DNA from: Modestobacter lapidis
GTDB lineage: Bacteria; Actinomycetota; Actinomycetes; Mycobacteriales; Geodermatophilaceae
Length of the DNA stretch: 64,000 nucleotides
Reading direction: 5' to 3'
NCBI GenBank assembly: GCA_019779905.1
Contig: JABAKE010000003.1
Location: forward strand, 124,001 to 188,000
Both the position numbers and the translations under genes were made by a program. Under the pieces are notes generated by a model. That model was not told where the DNA came from. It worked only from the letters and a program-made list of their open reading frames with translations, and did no database searches. The number at the start of each line of letters is the position of its first letter. Position 1 is the stretch's first letter. Shown here piece after piece: positions 13,512 through 39,896 of this stretch.

Positions 13512-14492
13512 GTGGCGATGACGGCGATGGTCAAGGACGAGCTCTCCCGCGTGGAGTGCACCAAGACCTCCGAGCGCAAGGCCGAGGTGACGGCGCTGCT
13601 GCGCTTCTCCGGTGGCCTGCACATCGTCGGTGGCCGGGTGGTCATCGAGGCCGAGCTGGACACCGGCTCGGTGGCCCGGCGGCTGCGGCGCGACATCAGC
13701 GAGGTCTACGGCTACACCAGCGGCGTGAGCGTGCTCGCCGGCGGCAACATCCGCCGCGGCGTGCGGTACCTGGTGCGCATCGCCAAGCACGGGGAGGGGC
13801 TCGCCCGGCAGACCGGCCTGGTCGACCAGCGCGGCCGTCCCGTGCGCGGCCTGCCGCCGGCCGTCGTCTCCGGTGGCATCGGCGACGCGGAGGCCGCCTG
13901 GCGCGGGGCCTTCCTCGCCCACGGCTCGCTGACCGAGCCGGGGCGCTCCTCGTCGCTGGAGATCACCTGCCCGGGGCCGGAGGCGGCCATGGCGCTCGTC
14001 GGCGCCGCCCGCCGGCTGGGCATCGCGGCGAAGGCGCGCGAGGTCCGGGGCACCGACCGGGTCGTCGTCCGTGACGGCGACGCGATCGGCGCGCTGCTGA
14101 CCCGGATGGGTGCGCACGACGCGGTCATGGCCTGGGAGGAGCGGCGGATGCGCCGCGAGGTCCGGGCGACGGCGAACCGGCTGGCCAACTTCGACGACGC
14201 GAACCTGCGCCGCTCGGCCCGCGCCGCGGTGGCCGCCAGCGCCCGGGTGGAGCGCGCCCTGGAGATCCTCGCCGACGACGCCCCCGAGCACCTGCTGGTC
14301 GCCGGCCGGCTGCGCCTGGAGTTCGGGCAGGCCTCCCTGGAGGAGCTCGGTCAGCGCGCCGACCCGCCGATGACCAAGGACGCCGTCGCCGGCCGGATAC
14401 GCCGGCTGCTCGCGATGGCCGACAAGCGCGCCAAGGATCTCGGCATCCCCGACACGGAGTCCGTCGTCACCGACGACATGCTGGCCCAGTAG
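13512..14492 (+). CDS. whiA: Sporulation/cell-division regulator WhiA
   Basis: 326 residues. WhiA is a DNA-binding protein with a LAGLIDADG-type N-terminal domain and a C-terminal helix-turn-helix; in Streptomyces it acts with WhiB to switch on division genes. I place the start at the GTG at 13512, giving the conserved [14 protein letters not shown] and the usual family length, with GGAGG 8 bases upstream; GTG 13503 or ATG 13518 are alternatives. The C-terminal HTH covers [15 protein letters not shown] through [12 protein letters not shown] (about 275-315). A palindromic element begins directly at its stop. Confidence 0.95.
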
Positions 14493-15683
<1,191 letters not shown>

Positions 15684-15684
<1 letters not shown>

Positions 15685-16877
15685 TGAGGTCCGTCGACGA
15701 GCTCGTCGCTGACGGGGTGTCGGGTCGGCGCGTGCTGCTGCGCGCCGACCTGAACGTCCCCCTGGACAAGGCCACCCGCGAGATCACCGACGACGGCCGG
15801 ATCAAGGCCAGCCTGCCGACGATCTCGGCGCTGCGCGACGCCGGTGCCCGGGTCGTCGTGGCCGCCCACCTGGGCCGGCCCAAGGGCGAGCCGGACCCGC
15901 AGTTCTCGCTCGCCCCGGTGGCCGCCCGGCTCGCCGAGCTGCTCGGCACCCCGGTGCCGCTCGCGGCCGACGTCGCCGGCCCGGACGCCACGGCCCGGGC
16001 CGCGGCGCTCGCCGACGGCGAGGTGCTGATGCTGGAGAACGTCCGGTTCGAGGCGGCTGAGACCAGCAAGGACGACGCCGCCCGCGGCGAGCTCGCCGAC
16101 CGGCTGGCCGGCCTGGCCGAGCTCTACGTCGACGACGCCTTCGGGGCGGTGCACCGCAAGCACGCCTCGGTGTTCGACGTCGCCGAGCGGCTCCCGCACG
16201 CGGCCGGCCGGCTGGTCGCCCGCGAGCTCGAGGTGCTCGACCGGCTGACGGAGAACCCCGAGCGGCCCTACGTCGTCGTCCTCGGTGGCTCGAAGGTCAG
16301 CGACAAGCTCGCCGTCATCGAGGCGCTGCTGCCCAAGGTCGACACCCTGCTGGTCGGCGGTGGCATGTGCTTCACCTTCCTGGCCGCACATGGCCACGGG
16401 GTGGGCGGCTCGCTGCTGGAGGCCGACCAGGTCGACACCTGCCGCCGGCTGCTGGCCGAGGCCGGCGACCGCCTGGTCCTGCCGGTCGACGTGGTCTGCG
16501 CCCCGGAGTTCAGCGCCGACGTCGAGACGACCGTCGTCCCCGTCGCGGAGATCCCGGACGGGCAGCTGGGGCTGGATGTCGGCCCGCGGACGGTCGAGCT
16601 CTTCGCCGGGAAGCTGGCCGGGGCGCGCACGGTGTTCTGGAACGGGCCGATGGGCGTGTTCGAGCTCGCTCCGTTCACCGCCGGCACCCGCGGGGTGGCC
16701 CAGGCGGTGGCGGACGTCGACGGGCTGTCCGTCGTCGGCGGTGGCGACTCGGCGGCCGCGGTGCGGCAGCTCGGGCTGGACGAGTCCGCCTACGGCCACA
16801 TCAGCACCGGCGGCGGCGCGTCGCTGGAGCACCTCGAGGGCCGGGAACTCCCGGGCCTCGCGGTGCTGGCGAACTGA
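15684..16877 (+). CDS. pgk: Phosphoglycerate kinase
   Basis: 397 residues. Transfers phosphate from 1,3-bisphosphoglycerate to ADP. Visible signatures: RADLNVPLD near residue 20, AHLGRPKGE, the substrate arginine/histidine region [31 protein letters not shown], and the nucleotide loop GGGDSAAAV (Ser where many homologues have Thr). The ATG overlaps the gap stop, so expression is translationally coupled. tpiA follows 10 bp later. Confidence 0.98.
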
Positions 16878-16887
16878 GGAGGCGGGC

Positions 16888-17700
16888 ATGGCACGCACGA
16901 GCAAGGCCCGCGCTCCCCGGGAGGGTCGCCGTCCGCTGATCGCCGGCAACTGGAAGATGCACCTCACGCACCTGGAGGCCATCGGCCTGGTGCAGAAGCT
17001 GGCCTTCTCGCTGAAGGAACCGCAGCTGGAGGCGGCCGAGGTGGTCGTCGTCCCGCCGTTCACGGCCCTGCGCAGCGTCCAGACCCTGATCGCCGGCGAC
17101 AAGCTGGAGATCGGGTACGGCGCGCAGGACCTGTCGGCGCACGATTCCGGCGCGTACACCGGTGAGGTCAGCGGCGCGATGCTGGCCGCGCTGGCCTGCC
17201 GGTACGTGCTGGTGGGCCACTCCGAGCGGCGCGCGCTGCACGGCGAGGACGACGCGATCGTCGCCGCCAAGGTGCAGGCGGCTCTCCGGCACGGCCTCGT
17301 CCCGGTGCTGTGCGTGGGGGAGGGTCTCGACGTCCGCCGGGCCGGGGAGCACGTCGGCCACTGCACCGGGCAGCTCGACGCCGCCCTCGAGGGGCTGGCG
17401 GCCGACCGGCTGCAGGAGCTCGTGATCGCCTACGAGCCGGTGTGGGCGATCGGCACCGGTGAGGTCGCCACCCCCGATGATGCGCAAGAGGTCTGTGGGG
17501 CGCTGCGCGCGCGGCTCGCCGAGCGATACGGCCCGGAGACGGCGGCGGTGGTCCGTATCCTCTACGGCGGGTCGGTCAAGGCCGGCAACACCGCCGGGAT
17601 CCTCGCCGGGCCGGACGTCGACGGGGCCCTCGTCGGCGGGGCCAGCCTGGACGCCGACGAGTTCGCGTCCATCTGTCGGACCGCCGCCGACGGCAGCTGA
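16888..17700 (+). CDS. tpiA: Triosephosphate isomerase
   Basis: 270 residues. Interconverts dihydroxyacetone phosphate and glyceraldehyde 3-phosphate. Key residues are visible: lysine in IAGNWKMH (about 25), catalytic histidine in VLVGHSERR (about 108), catalytic glutamate in [11 protein letters not shown] (about 182) and the phosphate loop [10 protein letters not shown] basic extension of about 17 residues precedes the conserved start. GAGGAGG lies just before the ATG. Ends the glycolytic operon. Confidence 0.98.
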
Positions 17701-17738
17701 GCTGCCGCCGGCCCGAACCGGGGCGGAGCAGCACCCAG

Positions 17739-19502
17739 TTGAACAGCCGTACCGAGCACGCGCCGGCCCGCCCCCGCACCCGCCGGGGGGCGGGCCGGTG
17801 CGTTGCCGCGCTGGCCTGCCTCCTGCTCGTCGCCGGGTGTGGCGGCGGCAACAGTGGCGCGGCCGGCGTCCCGACCCAGGTGGGTGAGCCGGACGCGGGG
17901 GTGGGCGGCGTCCGCGCCCCGTCCGACGCGGCCGGCGGCACCCTGCGGCTGGTGACGGGACCACTGGACAGCCTGGACCCGCAGCGGTCCTACCTCCCGG
18001 GGGTCTGGAACCTGATGCGGCTCTACGTCCGCACGCTGGTCACCTACTCGTCCGAACCCGGCCACACCGACGAGCTGGTGCCTGACCTGGCCACCGACCT
18101 GGGCACCAGCCCGGACGGCGGCCGCACCTGGACCTTCACGTTGCGCGAGGGAGTGCGGTTCGAGACCGGGCAGCCGATCACCTCACGGGACGTCAAGTAC
18201 GGCATCGAGCGGTCGTTCGCCTCGGACGTCGTCGTGGGCGGGCCCACCTACGTCGTGGACCTGCTCGACGACCCGGCCGACCCCTACGCCGGCCCGTACC
18301 AGGACGAGTCGCCCGGCCGGCTGGGGCTGCCCTCCATCGCCACCCCCGATGACCGCACCATCGTCTTCACCCTCCGCACTCCGTCGCCGGACTTCCCGTT
18401 CGTGATGGCGCTGCCCTCCTCGAGCCCGGTACCCCTCGATGCCGACACCGCCGGTGACTACGGCCGGGACCCGGTCTCCACGGGCCCCTACGCGATCACC
18501 TCGGTCGACCCCCAGGTCGGCGTCCGGCTGGCCCGCAACCCGCAGTGGGACCCGGCCACCGACGACGTCCGCACCGCGTTGCCCGACGAGGTGCTGGTGC
18601 GCACCGGCCTCACCGCCGTCGCGCGGGACCAGGCGCTGCTGGCCGGGTCGGCCGACATCGACCTGTCCGGCACCGGGGTGCACCAGGCGACCATCAGCCG
18701 GCTCGACGACGGCGACCTGGCCGCGCGCATCGACGACGTGACCAGTGGCGCGATCCGGCTGCTCGCGCTGCCCACCACCGTCGCGCCGATGGACAACCCG
18801 CACTGCCGGGCAGCCGTGGCCGCCGTCGTCGACCGGTCGGCGGTGCAGGACGCTCTCGGCGGCGCGCAGCACGCGGTGCGGGTCTCGCAGCTGTGGCCGC
18901 GGGCACTGGCGGGGGCGCCGGAGGACCCGGACCCGGAGCCGGACCTGGCCGCCGCCCGGGAGGCGCTGGCCGCCTGTGGCAAGCCCGACGGGTTCGGCAC
19001 CGTGCTGGCGGTGGCCGACGCGACCACCAGCGTCGCTGTCGCGGAGTCCCTGGCCGCGGACCTCGCCGAGGTCGGCATCCAGGCCGAGGTCCGGCCGCTG
19101 GACCCGGCGACCTACTACGCCGCCGGCGTCGGTAAGCCGGACGCGGTCACCGCCGCCGGCTACGGCCTGGTCATGGCCACCTGGACGGCCGACTTCCCGA
19201 CCCCCCCGTCGTTCCTGGTGCCGCTCGTCGACGGGCGCTCCATCAGGGCGGTGGGCAACACCAACTACGCCCGGCTGGCCGACCCGGGGGTCAATGCGCT
19301 GGTCGACGCCGCCCGGGCGGCCCCGGATCCGGCGGCGGCCACCGACGCCTGGTGGCAGGTCGCGGCCGCGGCGGCGGCCACCGGGGCGTACGTTCCGCTG
19401 GCGGAGAACAGGGTGCAGCTGCTCGCCGGGCAGCGGCTGCGCAACGGCGTGGTCATGCGGCCGTACAGCAGCTACGACGTCGCGACCGCCGGTGTTCGCT
19501 GA
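17739..19502 (+). CDS. ABC transporter solute-binding lipoprotein, family 5 (peptide/nickel type)
   Basis: 587 residues. The signal peptide ends in a lipobox (LLLVAGC), so the mature protein is anchored outside the cell membrane. The body fits solute-binding family 5: GGTLRLVTGPLDSLDPQRSYLPG at the start of the mature domain, then LVPDLATDLGTSPDGGRTWTFTLREGVRFETGQPITSRDVKYGIERSF. Ligand unknown; peptides are typical. No permease or ATPase gene is adjacent, so it is an orphan. The start is a TTG at 17739; no better start precedes the signal peptide. It sits between tpiA and secG, a position not usually occupied by such a gene. Confidence 0.85.
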   Translation: MNSRTEHAPARPRTRRGAGRCVAALACLLLVAGCGGGNSGAAGVPTQVGEPDAGVGGVRAPSDAAGGTLRLVTGPLDSLDPQRSYLPGVWNLMRLYVRTLVTYSSEPGHTDELVPDLATDLGTSPDGGRTWTFTLREGVRFETGQPITSRDVKYGIERSFASDVVVGGPTYVVDLLDDPADPYAGPYQDESPGRLGLPSIATPDDRTIVFTLRTPSPDFPFVMALPSSSPVPLDADTAGDYGRDPVSTGPYAITSVDPQVGVRLARNPQWDPATDDVRTALPDEVLVRTGLTAVARDQALLAGSADIDLSGTGVHQATISRLDDGDLAARIDDVTSGAIRLLALPTTVAPMDNPHCRAAVAAVVDRSAVQDALGGAQHAVRVSQLWPRALAGAPEDPDPEPDLAAAREALAACGKPDGFGTVLAVADATTSVAVAESLAADLAEVGIQAEVRPLDPATYYAAGVGKPDAVTAAGYGLVMATWTADFPTPPSFLVPLVDGRSIRAVGNTNYARLADPGVNALVDAARAAPDPAAATDAWWQVAAAAAATGAYVPLAENRVQLLAGQRLRNGVVMRPYSSYDVATAGVR

Positions 19503-19539
19503 GCGGGCGTGACGCCGGTGCCGGCTGACCCCCGTCGGT

Positions 19540-19545
19540 TAGGCT
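19540..19545 (+). promoter_or_regulatory. -10 box TAGGCT before secG
   Basis: TAGGCT lies 74 bp before the secG ATG. The leader also holds a short perfect hairpin CCCGTGG/CCACGGG (19590-19604). Weak evidence, no clear -35. Confidence 0.35.
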
Positions 19546-19618
19546 GGACCGTCGAGAGCCCCCGACCGTCCGGGTGCACGCCCACACCCCCGTGGTCCAC
19601 GGGACAGGAGACACGTCC

Positions 19619-19855
19619 ATGATCGAGCTCGTCCTGAACATCATGCTGGTCCTCACCAGCGTGCTGCTGATCGTCCTGATCCTGCTGCACCGGGGCAAGG
19701 GTGGTGGCCTGTCGTCGATGTTCGGTGGCGCGGTCGCCTCACAGCTGTCCGGATCGTCGGTGGTGGAGAAGAACCTCAACCGGCTGACCGTGTTCGCCGG
19801 GATGGTATGGACGGTCTGCATCGTCGCCCTCGGCATCCTCATCAAGGCCGGCTGA
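19619..19855 (+). CDS. secG: Preprotein translocase subunit SecG
   Basis: 78 residues. SecG is the small non-essential partner of SecYE in protein export. Two membrane helices (about residues 4-22 and 54-74) flank the conserved loop HRGKGGGLSSMFGG. I choose the ATG at 19619, with GGAG upstream; an in-frame ATG at 19574 would add an unconserved tail. Placement downstream of tpiA is usual in actinobacteria. A hairpin terminator follows directly. Confidence 0.95.
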   Translation: MIELVLNIMLVLTSVLLIVLILLHRGKGGGLSSMFGGAVASQLSGSSVVEKNLNRLTVFAGMVWTVCIVALGILIKAG

Positions 19856-19857
19856 AC

Positions 19858-19875
19858 CCGGGCGACAGCGCCCGG
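19858..19875 (+). terminator. Hairpin terminator after secG
   Basis: CCGGGCG and CGCCCGG form a perfect 7-bp stem with the loop ACAG, starting 3 bases after the secG stop. No T-run. Confidence 0.5.
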
Positions 19876-19977
19876 CACCCGCCGCTGGGGCGGATTTCCG
19901 GCACCGAACCGACCGGTCCGCAGCGAGCCGGTACGCAGGGTGTCCGCATCGTGACCTGAGCAGGGCGTCGTTGGCCC

Positions 19978-19983
19978 TAGACT
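19978..19983 (+). promoter_or_regulatory. -10 box TAGACT before rbpA
   Basis: TAGACT lies 68 bp before the rbpA GTG; the -35 region is not recognisable. The ribosome binding site is GGGGAG, 7 bases before the start. Confidence 0.35.
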
Positions 19984-20051
19984 GCCCGAGCGGTGATCAA
20001 CTCCGGTGCCGCAGGACGTGGCCGCAGCACGCGGCCGTCAGGGGAGCGATC

Positions 20052-20393
20052 GTGGCTGGTGGCAACGCGATCCGGGGAAGCCGGGTCGGCGCGGGTCCGA
20101 TGGGTGAGGCCGAGCGGGGCGAGACGGCACCGCGGCGCAGGGTCGACTTCTGGTGCGCGAACGGGCACGAGTCCCGCATCGCCTTCGCCATGGAGGTCGA
20201 GGTGCCGGTGAACTGGGACTGCCCGCGGTGCGGGCTCCCCGCCGGCACCGATCAGCACAACCCGCCGCCGGCGCCGCGGACCGAGCCGTACAAGACCCAT
20301 CTGGCCTACGTCCGGGAGCGGCGCAGCGACGCCGACGGTGACGCCCTGCTCGAGGAGGCGCTGACCCGCCTGCGCGCCCGCCGCGGCGCCTGA
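20052..20393 (+). CDS. rbpA: RNA polymerase-binding protein RbpA
   Basis: 113 residues. RbpA binds the primary sigma factor and RNA polymerase and stabilises open promoter complexes in actinobacteria. The N-terminal tail (AGGNAIRGSRVGAGPMGEAERG), core domain (VDFWCANGH...WDCPRCG, about 35-70), basic linker and C-terminal sigma-interaction helix (LLEEALTRLRARRG) are all present. The GTG at 20052 gives the conserved N-terminus; the longer ORF is not used. A palindromic element starts at its stop codon and separates it from the convergent pgl gene. Confidence 0.96.
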   Translation: MAGGNAIRGSRVGAGPMGEAERGETAPRRRVDFWCANGHESRIAFAMEVEVPVNWDCPRCGLPAGTDQHNPPPAPRTEPYKTHLAYVRERRSDADGDALLEEALTRLRARRGA

Positions 20394-20451
20394 GAAAGGA
20401 CCCCCTGCCCCCCACCGCTCGCGAGCTCGCGGCGGGACCCTGCAGGGGGCC
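20391..20451 (+). repeat. Palindromic element copy 2, between rbpA and pgl
   Basis: Starts with the rbpA stop codon (TGAGAAAGGACC). Arms CCCCCTGC (20401-20408) and GCAGGGGG (20442-20449), outer GG/CC with bulged A, core palindrome CGCGAGCTCGCG. It ends 4 bp before the convergent pgl stop, so it can act as a two-way terminator. Its inner part is identical to copy 3 inside pgl. Confidence 0.85.
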
Positions 20452-20454
20452 GCG

Positions 20455-21270
20455 TCAGGTCCGGGGGAGCCGGCTGGCCGCGGCGGCATCCAGCAGCCAG
20501 CGGGTGGCCCGGGTGCCGCGGGCGCCGGCCGCGGGCACGTCCGTCGGTGCCGCCCCGGACAGCGCCCGGGCCACGGCGGGTGCCTTGGCCTCACCGGACA
20601 CGAGCAGCCAGACCTCCTCGGCCGAGCAGATGGCAGGCAGGGTCAGGCTGATCCGGGTGGGCGGCGGCTTCGGGCAGTCCCGGACCGCGACCACCGTGCG
20701 CTCCGCGGTGACCGCCGGCGACTCCGGGAAGATCGAGGCCACGTGGCCCTCGGCCCCCATGCCGAGCAGTAGCACGTCGAAGCGGGGGAGTTGAAGGATC
20801 CCCCCGCCCCCCACCGCTCGCGAGCTCGCGGCGGGACCCTGCGGGGGGGCCGTCAGCTCAGGTCGCGTGGCGGCCGCCGTGAGCTCGTCGGCGTACCAGG
20901 CGGCGGCGTCCTCGGGCTCGGCGAACCGGGTGTCCGAGGCGGGCATCGCATGCACCCGTCCGGCCGGTACGCCCACCGGGTCGAGCAGCACCCGGCGGGC
21001 GGCCCTCTCGTTGCGCTCGTCGTCGTTCCCGGGAACGAAGCGCTCGTCGCCCCACCACACGTCCACGCCCGACCAGTCGACGACGGCGTGCTCGGGCTCG
21101 GCGGCCAGGGCGGCGGCGTGCTTCATCACCGCGGTACCGATGCCGCCGCCGGTGAGCACGACCGACGCGGTGCCGTGCACGGCCTGCGCCGCGGACAGCC
21201 GGGCGACCAGGGCGGAGGCGACCGAGCGGGCGAGCTGGTCGGCGTCCGGCTCGACCACCACGTCCGGCAC
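20455..21270 (-). CDS. pgl: 6-phosphogluconolactonase with an in-frame 60-bp palindromic-element insertion
   Basis: 271 residues from the GTG at 21270; a GTGA overlap with opcA (GTG at 21372) would give 305 residues. Hydrolyses 6-phosphogluconolactone in the oxidative pentose-phosphate pathway. Visible: VVLTGGGIGTAVM, WWGDERFVPGNDDERN, and FDVLLLGMGAEGHVASIFP. The segment around residues 140-160 (TAPPQGPAASSRAVGGGGILQ) is encoded by a complete element copy (20792-20851) lying antisense to the gene. It falls just before the conserved FDVLLLGMG strand, likely in a surface loop, and keeps the frame. The 5' copy at 21273-21335 supplies AGGAGG before the GTG at 21270, so I prefer that start. Last gene of the tkt operon. 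Confidence 0.9.
   Translation of the reverse strand: MPDVVVEPDADQLARSVASALVARLSAAQAVHGTASVVLTGGGIGTAVMKHAAALAAEPEHAVVDWSGVDVWWGDERFVPGNDDERNERAARRVLLDPVGVPAGRVHAMPASDTRFAEPEDAAAWYADELTAAATRPELTAPPQGPAASSRAVGGGGILQLPRFDVLLLGMGAEGHVASIFPESPAVTAERTVVAVRDCPKPPPTRISLTLPAICSAEEVWLLVSGEAKAPAVARALSGAAPTDVPAAGARGTRATRWLLDAAAASRLPRT
20792..20851 (+). repeat. Palindromic element copy 3, in frame inside pgl
   Basis: 60 bp, begins TGAAGGATCC and ends GGCC. Arms CCCCCCGC (20800-20807) and GCGGGGGG (20841-20848), then a T-G wobble and GG/CC. The inner part is identical to copy 2, about 400 bp away. The length is divisible by three and contains no stop in the pgl frame, so it is translated as about 20 residues. 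Confidence 0.88.
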
Positions 21271-21272
21271 GT

Positions 21273-21335
21273 GGCCCTCCTGTAGGGGCCCGCCGCGAGC
21301 GTGCGAGCGGTGGGGGGCAGGAGGGTCCTTCTTCA
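21273..21335 (-). repeat. Palindromic element copy 4, between opcA and pgl
   Basis: On the minus strand it begins TGAAGAAGGACC and ends GGCC. Arms at 21318-21325 and 21275-21282 (CCCTCCTG/CAGGAGGG) pair perfectly. The second arm contains AGGAGG, placed 5 bases before the GTG of pgl, so the stem would cover the ribosome binding site. If translation starts at 21372 instead, the element is coding (KKDPPAPHRSHARGG). Confidence 0.85.
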
Positions 21336-21368
21336 GGGCCGCCGCGATCCGCTCGCCGGGGGAGTGCG

Positions 21369-22496
21369 TCACCGGGGCACCGCCTGCTCGTCGGGGGAGG
21401 CCGCCGGATCGTCGGCAGCGTCGTCGTCCTCGCCGGCCTCGGCCACCTCGTCCGTGCCCTCCGAGTCCGCGGGGACCGTGGGAGCCGGGGTGCCGGCGTC
21501 GGCCGGGCGCATCGGGTCGAACCAGACGTGCTCCCGGCCGGCCGGGTGCTCGGAGAGCCCGGCCACCCCGGTGGCCGTCTCCAGTGCCTCGCTGTACGGC
21601 TCGTCGGAGTCCAGCCGGCGTAGCTCCTCACCGATCAGCTCGCCGAGGGACTGGTCCGGCAGGGCCACGACGGCATCGGGACGGTAGGGCTGGGTGATGA
21701 CCGCGCTCCCCTTGCGGTCGTCCTGCAGCCGCAGCTCCTCGTCCTCGTCCAGCTGCAGCACCACGCCGTCGACCCCCGACGAGGCCGGCGTCCGGGTGCT
21801 CGGCACGACGGAGATCCGGCATCCGCAGCGGGCGGACAGCCAGCCGGCGATCAGCTGGGCGGTGGCGTTGGCCGGGTCGCCCTCGACCTGCCCGCCGAGC
21901 ACCCGCACGGCGCCACCGCGCCGCCCGGCCACCGAGTCGAGGGTGGAGGCGAGCGTGGCCCGCCACGGCGTGCTCCGGGTCCAGGTGAGGTCGGTGTCGC
22001 CGGGCGCGTAGTCCTCCGCCCGGACCCGCAGTGCCTCCAGCGGGTCCTCGGCCATCGAGCAGTCGGTGACCCGGCGGTTGGCGATGACGCCCAGCGCGTC
22101 GGTGGCGATCCGCGCCGGTGGCCGCTCGTGCCACCAGGTGACCACGGGGGCGTCGGCGGCCAGCAGGGGCAGCACGACGGACTCGGCGTGCAGGCCGAGC
22201 CGGCCGTACATCCGCATCACCACGGCTTCCCCCGGGCCGAGCCGGCCACCGATCAGCACCTCGGCGTCCAGCCGCGGCATGGGCGCGTCGATCTGCCGTC
22301 GGATGACGACGAGCAGCCGGCACGGGTGCACCTCCGCGGCGGCGGTGGCGGCCTCCTCGGCCTCGGCGACCCGGCCCTCGTCGGCGACGACGACCAGGGT
22401 GAGGGCCACCCCGCTCATCACCGCGCCACCGGTGCGCCGCTGGGCAGCGAGCTCCTTGACCACGGCCGAGCCGGTGGTGTCCCAGAGCGTGGTCAT
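21369..22496 (-). CDS. opcA: Glucose-6-phosphate dehydrogenase assembly protein OpcA
   Basis: 375 residues. OpcA activates glucose-6-phosphate dehydrogenase in cyanobacteria and is kept beside zwf in actinobacteria. Conserved parts: start MTTLWDTTGSAVVKEL, HPCRLLVVI, LGLHAESVVLPLLAADAPVVTWWHERPP, and TDLTWTRSTPWRATLASTLD. The C-terminal 60 residues are acidic and low complexity. The ATG at 22496 has GGAG upstream; the longer open frame upstream overlaps zwf and is not used. Lies between zwf and pgl, overlapping the possible GTG start of pgl. Confidence 0.94.
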   Translation of the reverse strand: MTTLWDTTGSAVVKELAAQRRTGGAVMSGVALTLVVVADEGRVAEAEEAATAAAEVHPCRLLVVIRRQIDAPMPRLDAEVLIGGRLGPGEAVVMRMYGRLGLHAESVVLPLLAADAPVVTWWHERPPARIATDALGVIANRRVTDCSMAEDPLEALRVRAEDYAPGDTDLTWTRSTPWRATLASTLDSVAGRRGGAVRVLGGQVEGDPANATAQLIAGWLSARCGCRISVVPSTRTPASSGVDGVVLQLDEDEELRLQDDRKGSAVITQPYRPDAVVALPDQSLGELIGEELRRLDSDEPYSEALETATGVAGLSEHPAGREHVWFDPMRPADAGTPAPTVPADSEGTDEVAEAGEDDDAADDPAASPDEQAVPR

Positions 22497-25324: not shown

Positions 25325-25354
25325 CAGTCAGGTCCTTCCTAGGGGGATCTTCAT

Positions 25355-25412
25355 GGCCCTGTCCCGGGTCCCACCCTGAGCTTGCGAAGGGTGGGGAGGA
25401 CGGGGTCCTTCA
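25355..25412 (-). repeat. Palindromic element copy 6, between tkt and tal
   Basis: On the minus strand it begins with the tkt stop (TGAAGGACC) and ends GGCC. The inner stem CCCACCCT/AGGGTGGG around TTCGCAAGCTC is perfect (8 bp); the outer stem GTCC/GGAC with CCC/GGG has one unpaired base. It lies inside an operon, so it may cause partial termination or mRNA processing. Confidence 0.75.
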
Positions 25413-27635
25413 ACGGTCGCCGGTGGGGTTGTCCAGGCCGCCGCGCGAGGCGCCCGGGCCGGCCGGGACCGCGACGTCGGCGGACGCGGCCTGCAGGCTC
25501 TCGCGGGCGGCGGACACCACTGCGTCGGCGGTCAGGCCGAACTCCTCGTAGAGCACGGTGTAGGCCGCACTCGCGCCGTAGTGGTTGAGCCCGACGATCC
25601 GGCCGGCGTCGCCGACGAACTCCCGCCACCCCATCGGGACGGCGGCCTCGACGCTCACCCGGGCGCGCACCGTGGGCGGGAGCACCTCGTTGCGGTAGGC
25701 GTCGTCCTGGTCGGAGAACCACTCGACGCACGGCAGGGAGACGACCCGGGTCGGAACGCCGTCGGCCTCCAGCGTCTCGCGGGCGGCCACGGCGATCTGC
25801 ACCTCCGAGCCGGTGCCCATGAGGATCACCTCGGGGGTGTCACCCGACGCCTCGGCGAGCACGTACCCGCCGCGGGCGACGCCCTCGGCGGAGCTGACCT
25901 GCTCGCGGTCGAAGACGGGCAGGTTCTGCCGGGACAGGACGATCCCGGCCGGCCGGTCGTTGTGCTCGAGGATCGTGCGCCAGGCCACCGCGACCTCGTT
26001 GGCGTCCGCGGGACGGACGACGTCCAGCCCGGGGATCGCGCGCAGCGCGGCCAGGTGCTCGATCGGCTGGTGGGTGGGGCCGTCCTCGCCCAGACCGATG
26101 GAGTCGTGGGTCCACACGTAGGTGACCGGCAGCTGCATGAGTGCGGCCAGCCGCACCGCGCCGCGCATGTAGTCGGAGAAGGTGAGGAACGTGCCGCCGT
26201 AGACGCGGGTGCCGCCGTGCAGCGCGATGCCGTTCATGATCGCGCCCATCGCGTGCTCGCGGACGCCGAAGTGCAGGGTGCGGCCGTAGGGCCCGCCGGA
26301 CCACATCTTGGTCTGCCGGTCGGCCGGCAGGAACGACGGTTCGCCCTTGACCGCGGTGTTGTTGCTCTCCGCCAGGTCGGCCGACCCGCCCCACAGCTCG
26401 GGCACCTTCGGGTAGAGGGCGGCCAGCACTTCGCCCGAGGCCTTCCGGGTGGCCACGCCCTTGGCGTCGGCGGGCCAGCTCGGCAGCTCGTCGGACCAGC
26501 CCTCGGGCAGCGTGCGGGTGGACATCCGGGACAGCAGCGCGGCGGCGTCGGGGTTGGCCCGCTCCCAGGCGGCGAACCGCTCCTGCCAGGCCGTGTGGGC
26601 CTGCTGGCCGCGGTCCACCACCTTGCGGGCGTGCTCGATGACCTCCGGCGCGACGTCGAAGGACTTCTCCGGGTCCATGCCGAGGATCCGCTTGGTCGCC
26701 GCGACCTCGTCGTCGCCGAGGGCCGAGCCGTGCGCGGCGCCGGTGTTCTGCTTGTTGGGTGCCGGCCAGCCGATGATGGTGCGCAGCACGATGATCGACG
26801 GACGGGTGGTCTCGGCCTTGGCGGCGGCGAACGCGGCGTCGACGGCGGCGAGGTCCTCGCCGTCGTCCACGTGCTGCACGTGCCAGCCATAGGCCTCGTA
26901 GCGCTGGCCGACGTCCTCGGTGAACGCCACGTTCGTGTCGTCCTCGATGGAGATCTCGTTGTCGTCGTACACCAGGACGAGGTTGCCCAGTCGCTGGGTG
27001 CCGGCGATCGAGGAGGCCTCGCCGCTGACGCCCTCCTCCAGGTCGCCGTCGGAGGCGAAGGCCCAGATGGTGTGGTCGAACAGGCTCTCGCCCTCCGCGG
27101 CCTCCGGGTCGAGCAGCCCGCGCTCGCGGCGGGCGGCCATCGCCATCCCGACCGCGTTGCCCACGCCCTGGCCCAGCGGGCCGGTGGTGGTCTCCACACC
27201 GGGGGTGTGGTTGACCTCGGGGTGGCCGGGGGTCAGCGAGCCCCAGGTGCGCAGCGCCTGGAGATCGTCGAGCTCCAGGCCGTAGCCGGAGAGGTACAGC
27301 TGCACGTACAGGGTCAGGCTGGAGTGCCCCATGGACAGGACGAAGCGGTCGCGGGCCACCCAGTTCGGGTCGCTGGGGTCGTGCCGCAGCCATTTCTGGA
27401 ACAGCAGGTACGCGACCGGTGCCATGCTCATCGCGGTGCCGGGATGGCCGTTGCCGACCTTCTGGACCGCGTCCATGGCCAGCACCCGGGCGGTGTCGAT
27501 CGCCCTGCGGTCGAGGTCGCCGAAGCTGTCGGGCAGGGTCGGGGTCGGCTGCCGGGGCGAACCGGTGGGGGCGTCGCTCGCGGCCTCGGCCGGGGCCTCG
27601 GCCCGGGTGCTCTTGGTCCCACTGTCAGCGGTCAT
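25410..27635 (-). CDS. tkt: Transketolase
   Basis: 741 residues. A thiamine-diphosphate enzyme that transfers two-carbon units between sugar phosphates. N-terminal domain: DAVQKVGNGHPGTAMSMAP, GPLGQGVGNAVGMA, and the ThDP/metal motif ASDGDLEEGVSGEASS. Middle domain: LHFGVREHAMGAIMNGIALHGG, YGGTFLTFSDYMRGAVRLAALM and THDSIGLGEDGPTHQP. A poorly conserved N-terminal tail of about 40 residues precedes LDRRAIDTARVL. First gene of the minus-strand pentose-phosphate operon, divergent from ctaB. The stop codon is shared with palindromic element 6. Confidence 0.98.
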   Translation of the reverse strand: MTADSGTKSTRAEAPAEAASDAPTGSPRQPTPTLPDSFGDLDRRAIDTARVLAMDAVQKVGNGHPGTAMSMAPVAYLLFQKWLRHDPSDPNWVARDRFVLSMGHSSLTLYVQLYLSGYGLELDDLQALRTWGSLTPGHPEVNHTPGVETTTGPLGQGVGNAVGMAMAARRERGLLDPEAAEGESLFDHTIWAFASDGDLEEGVSGEASSIAGTQRLGNLVLVYDDNEISIEDDTNVAFTEDVGQRYEAYGWHVQHVDDGEDLAAVDAAFAAAKAETTRPSIIVLRTIIGWPAPNKQNTGAAHGSALGDDEVAATKRILGMDPEKSFDVAPEVIEHARKVVDRGQQAHTAWQERFAAWERANPDAAALLSRMSTRTLPEGWSDELPSWPADAKGVATRKASGEVLAALYPKVPELWGGSADLAESNNTAVKGEPSFLPADRQTKMWSGGPYGRTLHFGVREHAMGAIMNGIALHGGTRVYGGTFLTFSDYMRGAVRLAALMQLPVTYVWTHDSIGLGEDGPTHQPIEHLAALRAIPGLDVVRPADANEVAVAWRTILEHNDRPAGIVLSRQNLPVFDREQVSSAEGVARGGYVLAEASGDTPEVILMGTGSEVQIAVAARETLEADGVPTRVVSLPCVEWFSDQDDAYRNEVLPPTVRARVSVEAAVPMGWREFVGDAGRIVGLNHYGASAAYTVLYEEFGLTADAVVSAARESLQAASADVAVPAGPGASRGGLDNPTGDR

Positions 27636-39400: not shown

Positions 39401-39786
39401 GCGAGACCACCGGGTCGAGCGTCGAGCCGACCACCGAGCCGGCCCTCGTCGGCGGCAAGTCGGCCCTGATCGAGGACCTCGAGGAGGCCATGCGCGACGT
39501 GGTCGACCCCGAGCTCGGCGTCAACGTCGTCGACCTCGGCCTGGTCTACGGCATGGATGTGGACGCCGACGCCAACGTCGCCATCATCGACATGACGCTG
39601 ACCTCCGCGGCCTGCCCGCTGACCGACGTCATCGAGGACCAGGCCCGCCAGGCACTGACCGGTGGCCCCGGCCCCGGGCTGGTCGACGACATCCGGATCA
39701 ACTGGGTCTGGATGCCGCCGTGGGGCCCGGACAAGATCACCGACGACGGCCGCGAGCAGCTGCGCGCCCTCGGATTCCGGGTCTGA
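39397..39786 (+). CDS. sufT: SufT/MIP18-family iron-sulfur assembly factor
   Basis: 129 residues of the MIP18 (DUF59) family: MRDVVDPELGVNVVDLGLVYG, DMTLTSAACPLTDVIEDQ with the conserved cysteine, and INWVWMPPWGPDKITDDGREQLRALGF. These proteins help mature Fe-S clients. The ATG overlaps the sufU stop (ATGA), with GAAGGAGC upstream. Last gene of the suf operon; its stop opens palindromic element 8. Confidence 0.94.
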   Translation: MSETTGSSVEPTTEPALVGGKSALIEDLEEAMRDVVDPELGVNVVDLGLVYGMDVDADANVAIIDMTLTSAACPLTDVIEDQARQALTGGPGPGLVDDIRINWVWMPPWGPDKITDDGREQLRALGFRV

Positions 39787-39845
39787 GGAAGGACCCCGCT
39801 GCCCCCACGCCTCGCAAGCTCGGCGCGGGGCCCTGCAGCGGGGCC
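39784..39845 (+). repeat. Palindromic element copy 8, 3' of the suf operon
   Basis: Starts with the sufT stop (TGAGGAAGGACC). Arms CCCCGCTGC (39794-39802) and GCAGCGGGG (39835-39843) plus GG/CC with bulged A; core CCTCGCAAGCTCGG. Lies between convergent genes and likely terminates the suf operon. Confidence 0.85.
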
Positions 39846-39896
39846 GGCTCCCCTCGGCGAGAGCCTGTGAGAGTGCAGTAGCTGTAACGGTTGGCG

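Follow-up and report, generated by a model that had tools for sequence, protein, structure and literature searches.

How a gene for 6-phosphogluconolactonase came to hold, within its reading frame, copies of a palindrome otherwise met behind genes is the question raised by a stretch of 64,000 nucleotides from Modestobacter lapidis (G000:C275:124001-188000, hereafter the window). The palindrome is probably a dispersed 3'-end hairpin of the Geodermatophilaceae, mobile and tolerated in loops of Pgl that are disordered in the predicted structure. The features concerned are as follows:

20100..20393, + strand: rbpA, convergent with pgl (PF13397, 120.2 bits; no NCBIfam match)
20394..20452, + strand: element copy 1, lying where rbpA and pgl converge, between their stop codons
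20455..21372, - strand: pgl, 6-phosphogluconolactonase, 305 aa, GTG start overlapping the opcA stop; alternative start GTG 21270
20791..20868, - strand: whole lineage-specific pgl segment, residues 169-194, including the flank TRPEL, which is not element consensus
20792..20851, + strand: element copy 2, antisense to pgl, frame kept (frame APPQGPAASSRAVGGGG)
21369..22496, - strand: opcA, upstream of pgl (PF10128 and PF20171; TIGR00534 below cut-off)

The palindrome lies where the preliminary description of this locus had placed it, at 20792-20851, and is a direct repeat of 20394-20449 with 91% identity over 56 nt. Its inner half, claimed to be identical to that of the rbpA-side copy, does hold an exact run of 37 nt, the longest common to copies 1 and 2 (from 20407 and 20806, respectively). 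The frame stays open through copy 2, the 305-aa ORF at 20455-21372 on the - strand being free of stops, and at the level of sequence the in-frame insertion in pgl is real. While the in-frame addition thus stood as described, its size of about 60 bp and 20 residues did not, since the lineage-specific segment amounts to 78 nt, i.e. 26 codons or residues 169-194 (TRPELTAPPQGPAASSRAVGGGGILQ), at a site where congeners have about 4-6 residues in a DNA-level alignment; a second in-frame copy in the same gene, at 21271-21333, had also been missed.

Among pgl orthologues aligned from 47 of 59 genomes, the 12 left out belonging to other families of the order, the insert residues are found in three, the window's own counted, and within the genus in 3 of 23 genomes, own counted again, 20 of the 23 being without. 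The carriers, namely G000 (the window genome), G017 and G022, read TRPE..APPQGP..SRAVGG.., and the linker of the other aligned orthologues is shorter or unrelated. Orthologues free of the element, where the same residues would have spoken against an insertion, carry them in 0 of 44 cases. In public databases, 19 of the 120 Pgl proteins listed out of 5838 matches (own P0001 included) have the insert or a shortened form of it, a listing that leans towards carriers because the query itself has the insert; the weak case P0061 is included in this count and P0067 is excluded, its long linker not being clearly element-derived. Three pairs of proteins, each made up of one with the insert and one without it, are 96.8% (P0002/P0029), 95.1% (P0004 from M. 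roseus and P0018) and 95.1% (P0009/P0020) identical elsewhere. The insert is also present in P0006 from M. marinus. In addition, P0028 and P0030, 98-99% identical to P0013, exhibit shortened in-frame forms.

Regarding the protein, the possibility that pgl is a pseudogene finds nothing in its favour, the gene looking intact by NCBIfam (TIGR01198, 205.4 bits for a cut-off of 124.45), by Pfam (PF01182, 230.2 bits), by its predicted fold, which matches 3ico with a TM of 0.93-0.96 by target, and by its codon pattern outside the insert. In G022, intactness is only partly visible because a contig end breaks pgl. Modelling, proposed earlier as a means to place the insert, gives a structure with 224 of 305 residues at pLDDT 90 or more, residues 174-190 and 15-31 falling below 50; the first of these two segments sits after helix 153-168 and before strand 200-205. 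The insert appears to be tolerated because its stop-free frame yields an Ala/Pro/Gly/Ser-rich chain, disordered outside the fold in the model. The pN/pS ratio in the three carriers compared is 0.31-0.36 outside the insert and about 0.34, 1.9 and 0.54 within it, the latter values resting on 26 codons only and not lying below the rest of pgl, so that no sign of clear constraint or selection on the insert peptide emerges. The occurrence of the insert at one site and in one frame in several lineages might indicate that the peptide has been domesticated as a surface loop of Pgl and is not merely tolerated, a reading made very unlikely by the predicted disorder, the shortened in-frame forms, the pN/pS of the insert and its absence from 44 of the 47 aligned orthologues.

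The palindrome itself consists of 5'-AAGGACC, a variable outer stem, CCCC, a variable inner stem, a TCGCNNGCTC loop, GGG, the returning stems and GGCC. Six matches (E up to 1e-4) without clear start or end being dropped, 47 copies were left, from which seven with odd loops or lengths were further excluded; the consensus of the remaining 40 starts with TGANGAAGGACC, ends with GGGGCCG and is about 60 nt long. In the 24 gap-free copies of these 40, used for the model and for covariation, 92.3% of the cells are paired and both partners have changed in 11 of 19 pairs, one inner pair being non-standard in 18 of 24 copies. Cells changed on both sides number 55 against 15.5 after shuffling and 2-5 with slid partners, the latter control favouring the structure because it was drawn from the same copies. 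Base pairing has been kept by compensatory changes, as this covariation shows at the sequence level. Besides the copies at pgl, the window holds the following:

14488..14557, + strand: element copy at a gene 3' end
25352..25417, - strand: element copy at a gene 3' end, the gene being that for transketolase (called at 25410-27635, - strand)
39780..39849, + strand: element copy, its AAGGACC 2 nt behind a stop codon
59414..59467, + strand: element copy in shortened form, its AAGGACC 2 nt behind a stop codon
61004..61076, + strand: element copy, its AAGGACC 2 nt behind a stop codon

The usual place of the element is immediately behind stop codons. A profile search (E < 1e-3) of five blocks of four genomes, 1.97 Mb altogether, retrieved 77 copies. 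By gene calls from a home-made gene caller, 55 of them fall in the interval of -8 to +12 nt around a stop codon of the same strand, in 37 cases at exactly +2; for random positions (n=20,000), 0.6% fall behind a stop and 85.3% within genes. The stops beside the 55 copies are 42 TGA, 10 TAA and 3 TAG, and with such mixed codons TGA cannot simply be counted as element sequence. Nine other copies are without such a gene end within 200 nt, three are farther from one, five lack a clear start and five lie inside called genes, three of the latter being the pgl copies of G000 and G017. Two further candidates for internal insertion were discarded, namely 307615-308223 of G000, probably a mis-called start, and G000:C275:82281-83111 (element at 83046-83115), which is instead a C-terminal extension read through the element, its protein ending with GPRPPHPSQARGEPLDGA and the G017 and G020 orthologues ending differently.

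Placement and covariation together speak for a hairpin that is transcribed and acts at the ends of genes, where it could serve as a terminator, a transcript stabiliser or a ribosome-release signal. Like intrinsic terminators, the copies provide a stable hairpin at the gene 3' end; the T-run that would mark a classical intrinsic terminator does not follow GGCC in any of those in the window. On the + strand, both copies 1 and 2 fold strongly (-43.8 and -40.6 kcal/mol, z-scores of -3.4 and -3.1). Read on the pgl strand, the internal copy has a fold that is just moderately better than those of shuffled sequences (z -1.6, 17 of 200 as good). Since copy 2 is oriented as copy 1 and rbpA, and both fold strongly on the + strand, the internal copy could be a second terminator, kept for its role against read-through from rbpA; its position 340 nt beyond the rbpA-proximal copy and its absence from 20 of 23 congeners make this unlikely. 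The preferred reading remains that the pgl copies would be by-products of the 3'-end hairpin, surviving because their frames happen to be free of stops and the encoded chain falls in loops.

The element is widespread within the family. The window's own genome holds at least 153 matches to a 64-nt model, far more than chance would give, and the 47 copies found in 770 kb of it extrapolate to about 290 in the whole of it. By BLAST, the element occurs in 101 of 112 Geodermatophilaceae genomes and in 10 of 12 genera, outside the family in 1 of 16 genomes, with a marginal match (E 9.6e-4). With a covariance model at E up to 1e-5, it was found in all six family genomes drawn and in 1 of 55 others in the order, namely G164 from another family, whose two strong matches were possibly acquired by transfer. 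Sites also turn over: when six blocks were compared in a directed manner, a counterpart was present for 57 sites and absent at E < 1e-3 for 107, a degenerate hairpin being seen in at least one of the 107; another 113 sites were without flanks and 8 too far apart.

Where did the internal pgl copy come from? The preliminary description took the near-identity of copies 1 and 2 as pointing to recent local copying from the rbpA side. This origin was rejected because the core common to both copies differs little from the family consensus and the insert is found in other species, including G017, G022 and further public Pgl proteins; besides, the outer stems of the two copies differ. The left flank of the insert, ACGCGACCTGAGCTGACGGCC, is present at pgl in the three carriers with 0, 1 and 2 mismatches. 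Elsewhere in 112 family genomes it has 53 matches, all with 2-3 mismatches, for 42 with a reversed-pattern control, and a scan of 12 of these 53 other loci revealed no element at E up to 0.01. The TRPEL-type insert thus looks like one event, in which an antisense copy would have entered the helix-to-strand linker of Pgl; a second type of insert with a QVTDGTA flank (P0016, P0038) is perhaps a separate event. Since then, the resulting pgl allele may have been inherited, lost or exchanged among members of the family.

Judging from the protein tree, carriers are more clustered than expected by chance, yet do not form a single clade. In this tree, into which 70 of the 120 listed proteins were taken, the carrier and non-carrier labels change 10 times, for a mean of 16.9 after shuffling and 0 of 500 shuffles as low, and 9 of these changes are forced by well-supported branches. 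Trees from pgl alone are poorly resolved, and an rpoB tree was set aside for one absurd branch, probably due to wrong frames. In the opcA+zwf tree, G000 is sister to G022 (100/100) and G017 groups with G016 (79/87). Since the three DNA carriers fall in more than one clade, either recombination between lineages or repeated loss is required. It is conceivable, if somewhat less probable than the reverse, that insert and flank arose once in an ancestor and were repeatedly lost with no exchange by recombination: the TRPEL flank common to the three DNA carriers agrees with this, as do P0028 and P0030, whose shortened forms show decay in place, whereas the label changes on the 70-row tree, nearly all of them forced, and the ordinary short linkers in the compared close relatives of carriers weigh against it.

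The second in-frame copy of the window lies at the junction of opcA and pgl:

21271..21333, - strand: element copy 3, 63 nt, sense to pgl and in frame, within the N-terminal linker at residues 14-34 (KKDPPAPHRSHARGGPLQEGH)

Its 3' arm includes AGGAGG just upstream of GTG 21270. The sister G022 is without this copy and reads ...RVAAAL-GELRDGP-VPDIV, the 63 nt of G000 replacing 21; likewise, an N-terminal copy in G012 has 63 nt in place of 33 relative to G009. With empty sites in G022 for G000 and in G009 and G020 for G012, the junction copies of G000 and G012 look independent from their sequences. A copy is present at the opcA-pgl junction in 5 of 80 named loci, namely L144 (in reverse orientation), L147, L163, L174 and L180, and a motif search of the proteins only points to 21 among the 120 public ones listed, the window's own counted, whose N terminus coincides with such a copy or falls inside it. 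In L163 and L174, a second element is nested within the loop of the first (L163:3888-3980, L174:3913-4003), apparently in place of some 10-12 nt of the copy that received it, as judged against the consensus, and an element within an element is good evidence of mobility.

In several genera, the outer stem of the junction copies is CCTCCTG/CAGGAGG or close to it, which gives most of these copies a 3' arm similar to a Shine-Dalgarno sequence for pgl. A junction copy might accordingly be read in frame at the N terminus of Pgl, or constitute a leader with a ribosome-binding site. In the latter case, copy 3 would be untranslated and pgl would start at GTG 21270, the element supplying AGGAGG as Shine-Dalgarno, an option that comes close to an even chance. 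It is favoured by the arrangement AGGAGG-GCCNN-GTG in G000, L147, L163, L174 and L180 and by the upstream frame through the element being closed in L174, where a start after, or late in, the element is needed. Against it, G012 has ACC in place of GTG, so that an upstream start with translation through the element seems needed there, and the G000 codons before the element still match the N terminus of relatives. A like caution is expressed about N-terminal REPs in part of PMC3733652.

Taken further, pgl may be a recurring landing site at which a 3'-end hairpin of conserved structure and with no known transposase is turned into coding sequence, as internal loop or N terminus, and into a ribosome-binding site, the in-frame alleles then travelling between genera by recombination. 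The same frames are used in several genera, and this broader reading of the sequences is put forward tentatively, as a rather unlikely one; if true, the recurring landings would offer a series in nature along which the change of non-coding RNA into protein could be followed.

As to the nature of the element, the preliminary description drew a parallel with the palindromic insertions of Rickettsia, which is sound for in-frame insertion with empty orthologues and fails for size (about 60 bp) and preference for ORFs. According to sections of Di Nocera et al. (2013; PMC3733652), REPs are likewise palindromic, of many copies, mostly downstream of genes or between convergent ones, with termini that may give stop codons and some copies inside proteins, but they are 20-40 nt long and bear a GTAG/CGTC tag, whereas the element is about 60 nt long and without such a tag, with a covarying double stem and a conserved 10-nt loop. 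Rickettsial RPEs, as partly presented in PMC10969869, are similarly palindromic in-frame insertions adding residues to proteins, but are about 150 bp long and reside in ORFs, for 5 of 77 copies of the element in called genes. The Y1/RAYT transposase (Y1_Tnp, PF01797) was found in 0 of 112 family genomes by a search that was positive in 5 of 14 control genomes. That the element would be of the REP/RAYT or Rickettsia RPE type is thus highly improbable, despite its palindromy, high copy number, 3' location (55 of 77 copies downstream of genes) and some intragenic copies: the consensus ends carry no tag, the length does not agree, the Y1 transposase is missing and copies rarely lie within ORFs. 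Having neither REP tag and transposase nor RPE size and ORF preference, the element is placed with neither, by their descriptions.

Pneumococcal SPRITEs, in the portion of PMC10969869 dealing with them, are also dispersed hairpins resembling rho-independent terminators and nested in one another, but from an unrelated host, and the element is without a T-run, the comparison being by description. As for MITEs, the ends of the element are palindromic and no target-site duplication was seen at the two sites compared, G000/G022 and G012/G009, at which 63 nt take the place of 21 and 33 nt, nor was any evident in the G013 and G004 blocks, with two copies each. Closer to the present hosts, TRIT resembles the element, by description, as a hairpin of conserved structure that recurs at the ends of genes of an actinobacterium, and is not known to be mobile or to insert in coding sequence; it is reportedly, from work by Gardner in 2011, the mycobacterial terminator motif of RNIE. 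TRIT is also mentioned in a part of PMC3526491. An Rfam search of 14000-22000 of the window at E up to 1 gave no match at the element copies, the sole match being sR32 at 19952-20014 (16.2 bits vs. 40), away from them. Spread may proceed by copying without a RAYT transposase and by insertion with small deletions of the target.

In-frame palindromes are already known outside Rickettsia, intragenic REPs being reported from several non-rickettsial bacteria in sections of PMC3733652, the main text of which has no occurrence of "actinobacteria", "Geodermatophilus" or "Modestobacter". PMC9686282, going by parts of that paper, has a subject other than the Geodermatophilaceae element, and no description of the element came up in searches of open-licence PMC papers for palindromes or repeats of these genera. 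While a translated palindrome as such is not new, the actinobacterial hairpin family would appear to be a fresh variant, undescribed in the open PMC literature searched. The locus provides a clean actinobacterial case of a dispersed hairpin read as protein, with near-identical proteins with and without the insert, and points to a large family of gene-end hairpins across the Geodermatophilaceae, with no Y1 transposase and no Rfam match in the interval searched. The spread of such repeats, and the role of a hairpin 2 nt after the stop, become directly testable.

Two further observations concern copies elsewhere. Orthologous 3'-end copies at G000:C275:60703, in the G017 block at 270238 and in the G020 block at 313547 display compensatory stem changes, ACCCAG/CTGGGT vs. 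ATCCAG/CTGGAT. Of note, head-to-tail tandem arrays of near-identical units, spaced by 52-54 nt, are found in the same genome as the window at G000:C90:391865-392093, C118:18901-19121, C25:65630-65895 and C184:298698-298918, part of the outer stem being missing from the inner units of the C90 array.
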